The notes beneath the pieces are model-generated. The model ran no database searches, was not told the DNA's origin, and saw only the letters and a list, made by a program, of their open reading frames with translations. From an uncultured Eggerthellaceae bacterium (GTDB taxonomy: Bacteria; Actinomycetota; Coriobacteriia; Coriobacteriales; Eggerthellaceae): DNA of 42,962 bases. The translations under genes and the position numbers were made by a program. The stretch's first letter is position 1, and each line of letters opens with the position of its first letter. Of the stretch, positions 32,254 to 40,854 are shown piece by piece. The stretch lies in the NCBI GenBank assembly GCA_949450265.1, contig CASTMW010000002.1, positions 1 to 42,962 on the forward strand. The letters are read 5' to 3'.

Positions 32254-34005
32254 TTACTCGAACAGGCTGGCGAACAGGTTCGTACCGCCTTGGGGCATGG
32301 TCTTCATCTTGCGCGTCACGAAGGCCATCATCTCGTCCAGATAATCGAAGGTGACCTCGCGGCGTTCGCCGGTGCGGCGGCGCTTCAGCTCCACATTGCC
32401 CGCTTCCAGACCGCGCTTGCCCACGATCACCTGCAACGGCCAACCGATCAGGTCAGCATCGGCGAACTTCACGCCCGCGCGCTCGTCGCGATCGTCGATG
32501 GCCACCTCGAAGCCCATCTTGGCAATCTTGGTGGCCACATCGGTGGCTGCGTTCATGACCGCATCGTCGGCGGATAGCGGCAGCACGCACACATGCGCCG
32601 GTGCCACGCTGGGCGGCCAGATGATGCCATCGTCGTCGAAGTGCTGCTCCACCACGGCTGCCAGCGTACGCGTGACGCCCACCCCGTAGCAGCCCATGAT
32701 GAAGTACTGCTCCTTGCCATCCTTGTCCAGATAGGTGGCGTTCATGGTGCGCGAGTACTTGTCGCCCAGCTGGAACACCTGGCTGACTTCGATGCCGCGC
32801 GCCCCTTCCAGAGCGCATCCGCATTCAGGGCATGTATCACCTGGCACCGTGGTGCACAAATCGGCCCATTCGTCCACCTGGAAATCCACGCCCAGCTGCG
32901 CGCCCACGTAATGGTAGCCATCCTCGTTGGCACCGACGACCCACTGCGGCACGCTGCGCAGGTTACGGTCGGCCACCACGCGTGCGCCTTCCGGCAGGCC
33001 CACTGGGCCCATGGAGCCCTTGTGCAGCCCGAAGGCGACCATCTCCTCGTCGGTGAGGAATTGGAATCCTGGCACGGCCCGATCGGCCTTGATGTCGTTG
33101 AGCTCGTGGGTGCCCGGCACAAAGAGCACCACCAGGTCGCCCTCGGCGTTCTTGCCGGAGAGCGCCTTCACCGTGGAGGATGCCGGGATGTCCAGGAAAG
33201 CGGCCAGTTCGTCGATGGTGTGCACGCCTGGCGTGCTGGTCTTCTCCATCTTCTCCACCTTGTGCAGCGTGGCATGGCAGATGCACTCCGCCGCTTCCGC
33301 GTCGGCGGCGTATCCGCACTGGCAATGCACCAGCTCTGCCTCGCCCGATTCCGCCAGCGCCATGAACTCGGTGGTCACGCTGCCACCGATCTGCCCGCTG
33401 TCGGCCTCCACCGCGCGCCAGGTCAGCGCACAGCGATCGCAGATGCGGCCATACGCGCCCGACATGTCATCGTAGGTGGCCTGCAGGCTCTCCTGGCTAT
33501 CGTGGAAAGAATAGGCGTCCTTCATGATGAACTCGCGACTGCGCAGAAGCCCGAAGCGTGGGCGGATCTCGTCGCGGAACTTCACCTGTATTTGATAGAG
33601 CGATACGGGCAGCTGCTTGTAGGAGCGCAGCTCGTCGCGCACGAGCGAGGTGATCAGCTCTTCGTGGGTGGGCCCCAGGCAGAAGCCATGGTCGTGCCGG
33701 TCGGACAGGCGCATCAGTTCGGGGCCGTAGTCATCCCAGCGGCCGCTCTCATGCCACAGCTCGGAGGGTTGCAGCGCGGGCATCATGATCTCCTGGGCGC
33801 CGATGGCATCCATCTCGTCGCGCACGATGCCCTCCACCTTGCGCAGCACGCGGTAGCCCAGCGGCAGGAACGTGTAGACGCCGCTGGCCGTCTTGCGTAT
33901 CATGCCCGCGCGCAGCAGCAGCTTGTGACTGGCGATGTCGGCATCGGCCGGGTCTTCCTTCAACGTAGGAACGTAGAGGTTCTTCAGATGCAGTATCTCG
34001 GTCAT
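32254..34005 (-). CDS. proS: Prolyl-tRNA synthetase (bacterial type with editing insertion)
   Basis: LLLRAGMIRKTASGVYTFLPLGYRVLRKVE, LGPTHEELIT, VAPAHVCVLPLS. Confidence 0.97.
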   Translation of the reverse strand: MTEILHLKNLYVPTLKEDPADADIASHKLLLRAGMIRKTASGVYTFLPLGYRVLRKVEGIVRDEMDAIGAQEIMMPALQPSELWHESGRWDDYGPELMRLSDRHDHGFCLGPTHEELITSLVRDELRSYKQLPVSLYQIQVKFRDEIRPRFGLLRSREFIMKDAYSFHDSQESLQATYDDMSGAYGRICDRCALTWRAVEADSGQIGGSVTTEFMALAESGEAELVHCQCGYAADAEAAECICHATLHKVEKMEKTSTPGVHTIDELAAFLDIPASSTVKALSGKNAEGDLVVLFVPGTHELNDIKADRAVPGFQFLTDEEMVAFGLHKGSMGPVGLPEGARVVADRNLRSVPQWVVGANEDGYHYVGAQLGVDFQVDEWADLCTTVPGDTCPECGCALEGARGIEVSQVFQLGDKYSRTMNATYLDKDGKEQYFIMGCYGVGVTRTLAAVVEQHFDDDGIIWPPSVAPAHVCVLPLSADDAVMNAATDVATKIAKMGFEVAIDDRDERAGVKFADADLIGWPLQVIVGKRGLEAGNVELKRRRTGERREVTFDYLDEMMAFVTRKMKTMPQGGTNLFASLFE

Positions 34006-34038: not shown

Positions 34039-35142
34039 CTACAGCTTCCCGACCTCTTCCAAGAGCGCTTCCACGATGCGCTCTTCTTCGACTTTGGTGA
34101 CGATTTTACCATTACGGAACAGCGCCGCCTGGCCCGCACCGCACGCGACGCCCACATCGGCGTCGGCCGCTTCGCCTGGGCCATTGACCACGCACCCCAT
34201 GACCGCCACCTTGATGGGCTTGTCGATGCCTGCAAGCGCGTCCTCCACACGCTTGGCGATGGGGATCATGTCGACCTGGCAGCGTCCGCAGGTGGGACAG
34301 CTGATCATCTCGGGGGTGCGGCGGCGCATGTCCAGCGCAGCCAGCAACTGCCAGGCAGCCCGCACTTCCAGCACCGGATCGTCGGTCAGCGAGATGCGCA
34401 TAGTGTCACCGATGCCCTGCTCCAGCAGCACGCCTAAGCCCGCGGCCGATTTGATGGTGCCTTGGAACACGGTGCCCGCTTCGGTGACGCCGATATGCAG
34501 CGGTACCTTAGGCAGCCGCTGGCTCAAAAGGCGATAGGTGGCGATGGTGGCAGGCACGTCGTGTGCCTTCGCGGACACCACAATGTCGTGGAAGCCCCGC
34601 TCCTCAGTGAAATAGCGCACGTACTGCGCGGCCGATTCGACCAGCTTCTGCGGCAGCGTCAGATCCTGACGCTCGGCGATGGCGGCGTCCAGCGACCCGG
34701 CGTTCACGCCGATGCGGATGGGGATGCCCGCCCCGCGTGCGGCGTCGATGACCTGGTCGGTCTTCGCAAGGCCGCCGATATTGCCCGGATTGATGCGCAG
34801 CTTGGCCGCACCCGACCAGGCCGCTTCGATGGCGATATGCGCATCGAAGTGCACATCAGCCACCACGGGCAAGGGCGAGCGGGAGCACACGCGCGCGAAG
34901 GAGCGTAGCGCAGCTCGCTCGGGAATGGCCATGCGGACAATCTCGCAGCCCGCTTCGGCCAGCGCGTCGATCTGGCGCAGATTCGCCTCCACATCGGTGG
35001 CAGGGGCGTTCAGCATGGACTGCACCGCCACCGGAGCACCGCCACCGATGGCCACCCCGCCATGGCCGGGGCGTCCCACCATCACCTGACGCGTCGCATC
35101 CCGCGGCGCCTGCGGCTTGCCCTGCGGTTCACCCATCAGCAT
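34039..35142 (-). CDS. ispG: 4-hydroxy-3-methylbut-2-en-1-yl diphosphate synthase
   Basis: VADVHFDAHIAI, LRINPGNIGG, ISCPTCGRCQVDM, MGCVVNGPGEA. Confidence 0.97.
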   Translation of the reverse strand: MLMGEPQGKPQAPRDATRQVMVGRPGHGGVAIGGGAPVAVQSMLNAPATDVEANLRQIDALAEAGCEIVRMAIPERAALRSFARVCSRSPLPVVADVHFDAHIAIEAAWSGAAKLRINPGNIGGLAKTDQVIDAARGAGIPIRIGVNAGSLDAAIAERQDLTLPQKLVESAAQYVRYFTEERGFHDIVVSAKAHDVPATIATYRLLSQRLPKVPLHIGVTEAGTVFQGTIKSAAGLGVLLEQGIGDTMRISLTDDPVLEVRAAWQLLAALDMRRRTPEMISCPTCGRCQVDMIPIAKRVEDALAGIDKPIKVAVMGCVVNGPGEAADADVGVACGAGQAALFRNGKIVTKVEEERIVEALLEEVGKL

Positions 35143-35151
35143 TCCCTTCTG

Positions 35152-36261
35152 TTACCAGTTCCCGAAGACGAAGCGCTGCACGTCTTGATTCAACATGATA
35201 ACGAAGAAACCCACGAAGAGAGCCATGCCTGCCAAGGAGAGGTAGCCCATGACGCGCGCGGGCACCTGTCGGCGGCTGACCTTCTGGATGATCTCGATAA
35301 GGAAGCGGCCGCCGTCGAGCGGCGGGATGGGGATCAGGTTCATCAGGCCCAGCGACACCGATATGACCGCCATGAAGAACAGCGCTTCAGCAACCCCTGC
35401 CGCGAAGTAGTCGGCCGACATCACCGCGATGCCGATGACGCTGGTGGAATTGGAGACGGTCTCGGCAGCAGTGGCCGGATTGAACAGGCCCACGATGGCC
35501 TGCACTGTCATGCCGATGTAGCTGAACCCAGCATAGATGGCCTTGTCGGCGCCGACCACCACATGCGAGGTGGCGCCGGTGGCCGGGTCGGTCACGTCGA
35601 ACCCGACGACCGAGTAGATGACGATGAATGCCACCATGGCGAAGATCAGGTTCACGGCGATGCCCGCCAGCAAGATGACCGAGCGCTTCCAGAAGGGTAA
35701 GCTGCGGTACTGCTGCGCCGATTCACGCTGGAAGAGCGCTGAAGGATCGGGAACCGCGCGGGGGGTGCCCGCTTCTTGCCCATGCGGGCGCGGACGGCAC
35801 AGGCGGGCGGCTTCGCGGCACTGGGCAGCCGCGGGCTCTTCGGCAGGCGTGCGATAGAGCGGCTGCGCGTCGCGCTTGCGCGGAGCCTCGATGCTGCCCC
35901 ATTCCACAAGCTGGTCGAGCGTGTCCTGGGCGTCGTCGGCGCTGATGGCGCAGGCCGCGGCCACGTCATCCACCGACACCGTACCCCGCTCGTAGACGCA
36001 CGCGAGCACCGCTTCGGCATGGTCTGAGACAGGGCCCATCTCCATGCCGCACACCTTCGCATAGCCGCCAAGGGGCACCGCAGTCACCCCGAAGCGCGTG
36101 CCCGCTCTCTTGAATCCGATGCTCGGGCCGGGCAGGCCTAACATGAACTCGGTGACGCGCACGCCGAACGCGCGAGCCGCCAGATAATGGCCACCTTCGT
36201 GGATGAACACCAAAAAGCCGATCACGAAGACGGCGCACACGATCATGAAGAGTATGTCCAT
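35152..36261 (-). CDS. rseP: Site-2 protease family (M50/RseP-like) intramembrane metalloprotease, atypical domains
   Basis: HEGGH in TM1, GGYAKVCGMEMG, and NLIPIPPLDGGRF zinc-ligand motif. Confidence 0.9.
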   Translation of the reverse strand: MDILFMIVCAVFVIGFLVFIHEGGHYLAARAFGVRVTEFMLGLPGPSIGFKRAGTRFGVTAVPLGGYAKVCGMEMGPVSDHAEAVLACVYERGTVSVDDVAAACAISADDAQDTLDQLVEWGSIEAPRKRDAQPLYRTPAEEPAAAQCREAARLCRPRPHGQEAGTPRAVPDPSALFQRESAQQYRSLPFWKRSVILLAGIAVNLIFAMVAFIVIYSVVGFDVTDPATGATSHVVVGADKAIYAGFSYIGMTVQAIVGLFNPATAAETVSNSTSVIGIAVMSADYFAAGVAEALFFMAVISVSLGLMNLIPIPPLDGGRFLIEIIQKVSRRQVPARVMGYLSLAGMALFVGFFVIMLNQDVQRFVFGNW

Positions 36262-36588: not shown

Positions 36589-39500
36589 GTGACAAGACGA
36601 AGAGCATCAAGCGTGGGCGCGCGCATGCGATGGTTATTGATGATGGTGGTGGCCTTGGCCTTGATCGTAGGGCTGATACCCAAGGTGCCTTTGGGCGCCG
36701 AAGAGGCATACGCCGATGACCTGGCATACCTTGCGGTGGGAGAGTCCATACCCTATGGCGGCTACGAGACGCACCGCATGAGCGTGGAGGGCACCGTGGC
36801 CTACTGCGGGCAGCCCTCGAAGGCAACGCCGTTGGCGGGCACGTACCGAAAGGCTCCCATCACGCCCATCGCCACGGCGGGCGGTGCACCGTATGACGCC
36901 TCAGCTGTGGCCGCGGCCCTGTGGTTCGGCTACGGCGGACCGGGCTTCGATGCGTCCATATGGCCGCGCACCTGGTTCGACGGCTCTGCCATGACCGCAA
37001 ACCGCTACCTGGCCCTGACCCATATCGTGGTGGCGGACTTCTACGCCTGCGATGGTGCGGCAGCGCTCAGCGGCTGCACCGACGAGTTCCGCACATGGGC
37101 AGCCAATGCCGTCATGATGTACTGGGAGAACGTTCGCCATCCCAACGCATCACAGACCAAGATATTCGAGCGCTCGGGAGAGGTTCCTGCCGGTTTCAGG
37201 GACGGCTGCTTCCAGATGTCCACCGGCTCGGAGCGCCAGGTGATCCTGAGCTTCGTGTGCGGTGGCTGGCTGAGCATCGCGAAGCGCTCGGCGAATACAC
37301 AGACGACCGACGGCAACTCCTGTTATTCGCTGGAAGGTGCCGAATACGGCATCTATCGCGATAGCGCCTGCACGGACGCGGCGGGCACGCTGAGGTTGGA
37401 TAGAACAGGGCAGGCCACCTCGGGATATCTGCGCACGGGCATCTACTATGTGCGCGAGACGAAGGCGCCCGCGGGATATGCGCTCGACGAGCGCGTCTAC
37501 GCCGTGTCGGTGGCAAGCGGGCAGACCGCGCGCGTGAACGGCGGATCGGTGACGGATGTACCCCAATGCGCCACGGTGGAGATGCTGGTAGCCAAGATCG
37601 ATGCCGAAACGCGCGCCGCACGTGCCCAAGGAGGGGCCACGCTGGCCGATGCGCAGTTCACCGTGCGCTTCTATCCAGGGCGCTATACCACCGCAACCCA
37701 AGCGGAAGCTAGCGGGCAGCCGCAGCGCACCTGGGTGGTGCGCACCGATGCGAACGGACATGCCTGTCTGGACGAGGATCATCTGGTCTCGCAGAGCGGC
37801 GGCGGCTTCTTCCAAGCCAGCGATGGCACCCCAGCCATCCCGCTGGGCACGGTGCTCATACAGGAGACGAAGGCGCCCACCGGCTACCACCTGAGCGATA
37901 CCCAGGTGCATGTGGTGCAGCTGACCGCCAACGGCACCACCGAGACAGCGGTGGCCTACCAGGCGCCCACCGTGGCCGACCAGGTCTACCGCGGCGATGT
38001 GCAGCTGGTCAAAGCGCGTGAATCCGACCAGAACCGGCTTGCGGGCATCCCCTTCCGCATCACCTGCAACACCACGGGCGAGAGCCATGTGGTGGTGACG
38101 GACGCCAACGGGCAAGCAGGCACCCAAACCTCATGGAACGAGCATTCCCGCAACACCAATGCCAACGACCGCGCCGTGCGTGCAGACGGCACGGTGGACG
38201 AAACGGCGCTGGATGCACGTGCGGGCATCTGGTTCGGAGCAGGACGCGTGGATGATACGCGCGGTGCGCTGCCCTATGGGACCTACACGATAGAGGAACT
38301 GCCGGTAGCATCGAACGCAGGGCTGGCGCTGATCCGCATCCCGAACCTGACAATCGACGAGCGCGAAGGGCACCTGGTGGACCTGGGAACCCTGGATAAC
38401 CAAGCCATAACCGAAGTGGCCATCACCACGGCCGCTCGCGAACAGACAAGCAGCAACAAGACCACTGCTGCCGACCCGCAGACCACGATCATCGACCGCG
38501 TATCCTACACGAATCTGGATACGACGAGCGGTGTTCCCTACGAGCTACGCGCGACCTTGGTGGACCCGCTCACCGGAGAGGCGCTTCGCCACGCCAGCGG
38601 CGAGGCTATCACCGGACATGCGCGCTTCACGCCCACCCAGCCAAACGGCTATGCCGAAGTGGGCATCACGTTCGATTCACGCCCGCTAGCCGACCGCGAC
38701 GTGACCGTGTACGAGGAACTGGTGCGCTGCGACACGGGAGCGGTGGTGGCCGAACACAAGGATGCGGCCGACTACGCCCAAACCGTGCGCATCAAAGGGC
38801 AGCTGCTGCGCACCGAAGCCAGCGATGCTGCCGATGGCGACAAGCTGGTCTCGGCTGACCCGGAAGCCACCATCAGCGACCAGGTCTCCTACCGCAACCT
38901 GATACCGGGAAGCTCCTACACGCTGGAAGGGTCCCTGTGGGTCGTGAGCGATGGGACTAGCGAAATCGACAAGAGCGAAGGCGCAGACGAGGATGCCGAA
39001 GACGGGATTGATGACGCTGTGGACGAGGATGCCGAAGACGGCAATGGCGAAGGGTCAGGACCGCAGATCGTGCCGTTCTGCGATGCGGAGGGCGTTCCCT
39101 ACCGCAGCACGGTATCCTTCGTGCCGGAATACGAGGATGGCACCGTGGAAGTGCGCTTCACGTGCGATACCAGCGCCCAGGACGGACAGCGGATCGTCGT
39201 GTTCGAGCGACTGCTGAAGGATGGGCAACTGATCGCCGCCCACGAGGATGCTGCCGACGCCGACCAGACCGTCAGCGTGCAGGCACCGCGGATCGCCACG
39301 GTGGCCGCCGATCTGGCCGATGGCGATGACGTGGTGGCCGCCGATGGCGCCTCCACCGTGGTGGACGCCATCAGCTACACCGACCTGATCCCCGGCAAGG
39401 AATATCGGCTCGAAGGCAGCTTGATGCTGAAGAGCGCCGAAGTGGCCGAGGACGGGACCACGCAGTGGAACGTCGAACCGCTGACCGATGGTGAAGGACG

Positions 39501-40854
39501 CGCGGTGCAGGCGCAGACGACGTTCACGCCCGAGCTGAGCACAGGGCAGACGCAGGTGCGCTTCGACTTCGATTCGTCGAACCACGACGGGCGCGACCTG
39601 GTGGTCTACGAGAAGCTCTACCGCAACGATACCTTGGTGGCAGAGGACGAGGACCCCGCCAACGAGGACCAGAGCTTCACGGTGAACGCGCTGGATATCT
39701 GGACGATGCTGGGTGGTCCCGATGCGGCCTCCAAACAGATCAAAGCCGATTCGGAAGCTGCCTTCACCGACGAGGCCAGCTATACCGATGCAGTGGCCGG
39801 AGGGACCTACACCGCCCACGGCATGCTGGTAGACCCCACCACAGGACTCCCCCTTCTGCAACATCGCGATGATGCCGAAAGTGATGCCGCTGCTAACCAA
39901 GGCGCCGATGATAAGGCTGCCAGCCAGGCCGAACAGCTGATGCGCGAGCTGCTGGACGCATCGGGTGCAGTGCCCAAGGATAGCCGTGATGATGACCTGG
40001 GCACCCTGTTCGCTCAGCCGACAGCGCTGCCCCGCGCCTTCGATGCAGATGCCCTGCGCTCCATCGTGGAACGCTACCCTGCCATAGCCGATCGCCTGGT
40101 CGTGGCAACCACCACCTTCACCGCCGAAGCCACCACCGGACATGCCGACCTTGCCTACCGTCTGGATGCACGCGGCATGGAGGGCATGCGCGCCACGGCC
40201 GTGGTGGTGCTGGTCAAGGACGATATGGCGGTCAGCCAGGAGATGGACCTGACGAGCGAGGATCAGACCGTGCTATTCGTGACGGGCGCCATCGAAACGA
40301 CAGCCACCGATGCCACCGATGGCGACCAGATGCTACTGAACAGCGCCTCGGCCAGGATACGCGACGAGGTCCGCTTCGAAGGGCTGACCCCCGGCAAGGA
40401 ATACGTACTGGAAGGCGTGCTGTACGACCGTTCCACCGCAAGCCCGCTGCTGATCGGCGACAAGCAGATAGCCGCCAGCGCCTCGTTCGTGCCCGCCGCC
40501 GAGAACGGCAGCCAAACGGTGGAGTTCACCTTCGACGCCAGCAGGGCGGGCGGCAAGCAGGTAGTGGTGTATGAGTACCTGTACCGCAGCATGGAGACTG
40601 ACAACAACAATGCCGAGAAGGTGCTGGTGGCCCAACATGCCGATCTGGGCGCCGCTGAGCAAACGGTGTTCATAGAAGGAGAGGGCCTGCCTGGCACTGG
40701 CTACGACAAGACAGGCGATGCAAGCGGTCCCCTTACCTGTGCCGCCGTGCTGGGAGGCCTGGGGGCGCTGGGTGCCTGCGGCTATGGCATCCGATCGCTC
40801 CACCGGCGCAACCGGGCTGCCCAGCTGAGCGTAGAGCGTGCACTGCGCCGATAG
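36589..40854 (+). CDS. LPGTG-anchored surface adhesin: thioester-like N-domain, SpaA-like domains, five VaFE/ester-type repeats
   Basis: GTG start, signal peptide ending AYA, repeats such as TEASDAADGDKLVSADPEATISDQVSYRNLIPGSSYTLEGSL, LPGTG plus TM plus basic tail. Confidence 0.93.
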   Translation: MTRRRASSVGARMRWLLMMVVALALIVGLIPKVPLGAEEAYADDLAYLAVGESIPYGGYETHRMSVEGTVAYCGQPSKATPLAGTYRKAPITPIATAGGAPYDASAVAAALWFGYGGPGFDASIWPRTWFDGSAMTANRYLALTHIVVADFYACDGAAALSGCTDEFRTWAANAVMMYWENVRHPNASQTKIFERSGEVPAGFRDGCFQMSTGSERQVILSFVCGGWLSIAKRSANTQTTDGNSCYSLEGAEYGIYRDSACTDAAGTLRLDRTGQATSGYLRTGIYYVRETKAPAGYALDERVYAVSVASGQTARVNGGSVTDVPQCATVEMLVAKIDAETRAARAQGGATLADAQFTVRFYPGRYTTATQAEASGQPQRTWVVRTDANGHACLDEDHLVSQSGGGFFQASDGTPAIPLGTVLIQETKAPTGYHLSDTQVHVVQLTANGTTETAVAYQAPTVADQVYRGDVQLVKARESDQNRLAGIPFRITCNTTGESHVVVTDANGQAGTQTSWNEHSRNTNANDRAVRADGTVDETALDARAGIWFGAGRVDDTRGALPYGTYTIEELPVASNAGLALIRIPNLTIDEREGHLVDLGTLDNQAITEVAITTAAREQTSSNKTTAADPQTTIIDRVSYTNLDTTSGVPYELRATLVDPLTGEALRHASGEAITGHARFTPTQPNGYAEVGITFDSRPLADRDVTVYEELVRCDTGAVVAEHKDAADYAQTVRIKGQLLRTEASDAADGDKLVSADPEATISDQVSYRNLIPGSSYTLEGSLWVVSDGTSEIDKSEGADEDAEDGIDDAVDEDAEDGNGEGSGPQIVPFCDAEGVPYRSTVSFVPEYEDGTVEVRFTCDTSAQDGQRIVVFERLLKDGQLIAAHEDAADADQTVSVQAPRIATVAADLADGDDVVAADGASTVVDAISYTDLIPGKEYRLEGSLMLKSAEVAEDGTTQWNVEPLTDGEGRAVQAQTTFTPELSTGQTQVRFDFDSSNHDGRDLVVYEKLYRNDTLVAEDEDPANEDQSFTVNALDIWTMLGGPDAASKQIKADSEAAFTDEASYTDAVAGGTYTAHGMLVDPTTGLPLLQHRDDAESDAAANQGADDKAASQAEQLMRELLDASGAVPKDSRDDDLGTLFAQPTALPRAFDADALRSIVERYPAIADRLVVATTTFTAEATTGHADLAYRLDARGMEGMRATAVVVLVKDDMAVSQEMDLTSEDQTVLFVTGAIETTATDATDGDQMLLNSASARIRDEVRFEGLTPGKEYVLEGVLYDRSTASPLLIGDKQIAASASFVPAAENGSQTVEFTFDASRAGGKQVVVYEYLYRSMETDNNNAEKVLVAQHADLGAAEQTVFIEGEGLPGTGYDKTGDASGPLTCAAVLGGLGALGACGYGIRSLHRRNRAAQLSVERALRR
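38986..39041 (+). repeat. In-frame 20-nt direct repeat with 36-nt period within the adhesin gene
   Basis: GACGAGGATGCCGAAGACGG at 38986-39005 and 39022-39041; encodes DEDAEDG twice. Confidence 0.85.

Follow-up and report, generated by a model that had tools for sequence, protein, structure and literature searches.

The protein encoded at 35152-36261 (minus strand) of the window, i.e. of the 42,962-nucleotide stretch from an uncultured Eggerthellaceae bacterium analysed here, is an RseP by descent which has lost its PDZ domain and carries an additional winged-helix domain between the membrane-reentrant loop and TM2. These peculiarities are the outcome of two separate events: the winged helix is class-wide and the older one, and the family-wide PDZ loss came later. 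While this architecture is firm, the mode of substrate selection proposed below is what we infer from it.

Overall architecture and family assignment

The open reading frame, its coordinates and its strand are as given in an earlier note on this DNA. The protein and its two downstream neighbours comprise the following features, all on the minus strand.

35152..36261, minus strand: PDZ-less RseP-type site-2 protease, 369 aa (Pfam Peptidase_M50, E 1.9e-47; single RseP per genome)
36187..36201, minus strand: HEGGH zinc-binding motif in TM1, residues 21-25 (sequence; invariant in 16 relatives)
36043..36156, minus strand: membrane-reentrant beta region with GGY, residues 36-73 (model strands; alignment to solved RseP)
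35842..36021, minus strand: winged-helix domain, residues 81-140 (AlphaFold, Foldseek, weak Pfam matches; conserved across the class)
35746..35841, minus strand: Pro/Ala-rich linker, residues 141-172, of variable length among relatives
35605..35694, minus strand: TM2 region, residues 190-219 (model helix; AGxxxN motif)
35551..35604, minus strand: site of the lost PDZ domain, residues 220-237, now a short hairpin (spacing table, alignment, model)
35308..35340, minus strand: NLIPIPPLDGG catalytic motif, residues 308-318 (sequence; one position varies among relatives, the rest is invariant)
34039..35142, minus strand: ispG/gcpE, the canonical downstream neighbour (PF04551, E 5.8e-134; gene order)
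32254..34005, minus strand: proS, the second downstream neighbour (domain scan; gene order)

HEGGH, the GGY reentrant loop and NLIPIPPLDGG are all intact, and the protein thus shows the HExxH and NxxPxxxLDG motifs as well as the membrane-reentrant GGY beta-loop of RseP. With the group I site-2 proteases RseP, RasP and Rip1 it shares HExxH in TM1, the GGY reentrant loop, NxxPxPxLDG and the ispG-proS neighbours. It also matches the solved RseP structures 7w6x, 7w6y and 9j82, which align with the stretches flanking both the insert and the PDZ gap. Descent and the locus dxr-rseP-ispG-proS point to RseP as well, the window having an insertion that separates dxr from rseP; in most other Coriobacteriia sampled the order is rpsB-tsf-pyrH-frr-uppS-cdsA-dxr-rseP, and ispG-proS come next wherever the retrieved sequence is long enough. 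In the source genome (86.7% complete) there is no other RseP, and the only further M50 protein is smaller. Relatives carrying a name include Adlercreutzia, Slackia and uncultured Enterorhabdus, in keeping with the assignment to the Eggerthellaceae, class Coriobacteriia. The protein is probably an RseP by chemistry too, with predicted activity.

It differs from RseP, RasP and Rip1 in the extra winged helix between reentrant loop and TM2, in the absence of a PDZ domain after TM2, where group I members carry at least one, and in its score against the RseP family NCBIfam TIGR00054, which at 134.8 bits lies below the cut-off of 147.55. The lack of a PDZ domain is shared with SpoIVFB and the other group III site-2 proteases, which are controlled from the cytoplasmic side, although the window sequence matches group I far better than group III. 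Group III proteases carry a CBS domain (PMC10202637); since a Pfam scan found none in the window protein, it is not assigned to group III, and the most fitting description is that of an RseP derivative devoid of a PDZ domain and equipped with a winged helix specific to the class.

Absence of the PDZ domain

In agreement with the earlier reading that no PDZ domain is recognisable, a Pfam scan of the 369 residues detected none at E-values up to 10, while the same library revealed PDZ_2 in each of six relatives examined that belong to the same order but to different families. Two further Eggerthellaceae RseP proteins were scanned with Pfam, and PDZ_2 was found in neither. The spacing between TM2 and LDGG is 116 residues in the window protein and 115-116 in the Eggerthellaceae, as compared with 188-201 in all others sampled, and alignments, first order-wide and then class-wide, depict a gap of about 77 residues after TM2 in this family only. 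The constant spacing leaves no room for a PDZ domain, and at its site the AlphaFold model contains nothing beyond a short hairpin; a domain too diverged to be detected is ruled out by both.

Winged-helix insert and linker

The insert starts immediately after the reentrant beta-loop (GGYAKVCGMEMG). From GGY to TM2 the window protein spans 134 residues and Coriobacteriia in general 98-184, against 32-43 in most other sampled Actinomycetota, and the comparison of these spacings yields an insert of about 95 residues (about 91-102). Together with the 116 residues from TM2 to LDGG, this is close to the roughly 110 extra residues before TM2 and 80 after it that had been estimated from the sequence. 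The insert had also been read as winged-helix-like and followed by a Pro/Ala-rich linker; the linker is present, and AlphaFold, Foldseek and weak Pfam matches agree on the fold.

In the full AlphaFold model the mean pLDDT is 89-94 for residues 81-120 and about 80-89 for residues 121-180, and the winged-helix domain modelled alone reaches a mean of 83. Three helices (82-92, 97-103 and 108-120) and short strands give the predicted structure the H1-S1-H2-H3-wing order of the fold. The best Foldseek matches of the domain in the PDB are winged-helix proteins, namely MarR, CadC, PapI, Zalpha, Hop2 and ESCRT-II; with the full model such proteins rank after the RseP structures. Among 37 members of the insert family, 21 give a match to Pfam TrmB (best 1.6e-5) and 13 one to MarR_2 (best 2.2e-6), and an insert profile run against the sequences of solved structures gave weak matches only, mostly to winged-helix proteins. 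The window insert itself stays below the Pfam cut-offs (MarR-type 18.5 bits versus 27).

One Leu and one Trp are invariant among the 37 insert sequences. In the closest pair the insert has a pN/pS of about 0.23, indicating purifying selection, and the linker changes faster. Compared at matched core identity, inserts from the PDZ-less family are more acidic than those of the PDZ-bearing ones and also better conserved: at 70-75% core identity, for example, and over pairs that are non-independent, the value is 0.62 compared with 0.51 in the other families. No second copy of the insert was found elsewhere in the genome. In the open-access literature searched, a scope outside which most subscription journals lie, nothing was found on a site-2 protease containing a winged helix, and this class-wide, presumably cytoplasmic domain of RseP is apparently undescribed so far.

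In one relative (L071, genome G023) a repetitive Ala/Pro stretch enlarges the linker behind the winged helix, giving a GGY-to-TM2 spacing of 184. Unrelated long loops occupy the same position between TM1 and TM2 in two actinobacterial RseP proteins (L110 and L124, spacing 82 and 103); this site may therefore accept insertions repeatedly.

Distribution and history of the two changes

An orthologue is present in 136 of 140 Eggerthellaceae genomes, and all 136 are PDZ-less. Every match runs across the PDZ site uninterrupted by an insertion, splits being confined to the linker or to contig ends. The four genomes without an RseP match contain smaller M50 proteins only and are consequently not PDZ-bearing exceptions. 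In the 99% complete Eggerthellaceae genome G391 no RseP orthologue was detected, only a smaller M50 protein, by either a real loss or an assembly gap.

The insert is common to every Coriobacteriia RseP examined, at the same place, and in all families except the Eggerthellaceae it stands alongside one normal PDZ domain. In a tree of the TM core (quick search), from which the columns of insert and PDZ domain were excluded, a single branch with an SH-aLRT of 100 splits off the 35 PDZ-less sequences. The PDZ domain was lost once, in the ancestor of the Eggerthellaceae. The view of the earlier note that the insert is found instead of a PDZ domain has to be revised in this respect, as the winged helix long predates the loss and did not arise as a replacement.

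Substrate access and alternative explanations

In RseP, the PDZ domain is the standard explanation for the cutting of trimmed substrates only. The Eggerthellaceae, gut bacteria including Adlercreutzia and Slackia, have in effect deleted the PDZ domain in nature while retaining the catalytic motifs; with their sister families, which have both PDZ domain and winged helix, they offer a ready-made natural test of the size-filter model. As E. coli RseP with a disrupted PDZ domain cuts RseA without a prior first cut, the domain acting as a size filter in the size-exclusion model (PMC10202637), differently gated access, as proposed in the earlier note, is a reasonable expectation for the window protein, and the choice of its targets is probably controlled in another way than in the textbook RseP. 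The reentrant beta-loop of E. coli RseP dips into the membrane from the cytoplasmic side, and mutations in it alter substrate cleavage or choice (PMC4597795). Because the insert follows directly upon this loop, homology with E. coli RseP would place the winged helix on the cytoplasmic side. The alignment behind the AlphaFold model is shallow and confidence in the modelled TM core is low, so the model positions the winged helix only tentatively with respect to the active site.

According to the reading preferred here, which we consider about as probable as a coin toss (roughly 0.5), the window protein is a PDZ-less RseP that would choose its substrates at the inner face of the membrane and whose winged helix would dock a protein. 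The orthologue would have secondarily lost the extracytoplasmic PDZ filter and kept the acidic winged helix inside, tethered behind the reentrant beta-loop. Without the filter, entry from the outside would no longer be limited by size, and the substrates would be membrane segments whose ectodomains are short or have been trimmed beforehand; candidates are signal-peptide remnants, small membrane proteins and first-cut products, perhaps generated by HtrA. Selection would have moved to the cytoplasmic side; there the winged helix may dock proteins or gate access and would not act as a DNA binder. Both the ungated entry and the docking are what we infer. In a more specific form, advanced tentatively as a possibility, outer PDZ control would have been abandoned family-wide, and the acidic winged helix on the reentrant loop would receive a cytoplasmic partner or the cytoplasmic domain of the substrate and so decide on cleavage.

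The strongest rival is a plain loss of regulation, by which RseP in these commensals would do no more than clear away signal peptides and small membrane proteins constitutively; the PDZ domain would have become dispensable, and the winged helix would be an ancient structural insertion that plays no part in gating. Anti-sigma factors with a zf-HC2 zinc finger are a classical substrate type, and EcsB belongs to the EcsAB-RasP pathway of Bacillus; among the relatives tested the former are nearly absent (zf-HC2 type only) and the latter is absent, as this explanation would have it. The same results led to the rejection of zf-HC2 anti-sigma factors as substrates and ruled out that the winged helix docks to the EcsB pathway. 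However, the insert is retained in all Coriobacteriia RseP proteins examined, has a Leu and a Trp invariant in 37 sequences, is under purifying selection and is more conserved precisely in the PDZ-less family, which speaks against a mere loss of regulation and leaves it the less probable reading.

Alternatively, an HtrA from the same gene cluster could supply PDZ and first-cut functions in trans, trimming substrates and passing them on to RseP. In 18 of the 20 Eggerthellaceae loci with pyrH, the gene found upstream of it encodes an HtrA that combines trypsin and PDZ domains; none of 25 loci from the PDZ-bearing families shows this, and rpsB-tsf was not found at this position of the cluster in the Eggerthellaceae loci. 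The placement suggests HtrA as a site-1 partner. Five housekeeping genes intervene, though, and HtrA is not found before pyrH in G023 nor in G001, which belongs to the genus of the window, so that the linkage is not obligatory; moreover, PDZ-bearing families possess HtrA proteins elsewhere in the genome. The placement may be one inherited rearrangement unrelated to the PDZ loss, and supply in trans appears unlikely.

Binding of DNA or RNA by the winged helix, which would turn the protease into a membrane-tethered regulator, is very improbable. The fold is shared with MarR/TrmB-type winged helices, and the nearest folds include DNA-binding regulators of the MarR and ArsR types. In contrast to these, the window insert reaches no family cut-off score, has no basic DNA-binding face and is located inside a membrane protease; the acidity of the insert, with a net charge of -3 to -11 in 46/46 sequences and an acidic helix 3, argues against DNA binding.

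Finally, a frameshift, which the earlier note had considered as a source of the insert, a misassembly or an over-diverged PDZ domain can be dismissed, given the identical frame and layout across the Eggerthellaceae, gap-free in relatives of 86% and 75% identity, the codon analysis (insert pN/pS, see above) and the 115-116 residue spacing.

The rseP/dxr junction

The interval from rseP to dxr in the window is occupied, on the opposite strand, by the gene of a large surface protein (36589-40854, plus strand) with a thioester domain, SpaA and four T-Q ester-bond domains. A large ORF is found at this junction in many Eggerthellaceae genera, and 7/7 of those scanned contain adhesin-type domains (TQ/SpaA or DUF11); the rseP/dxr junction is a recurrent place for surface-protein genes.
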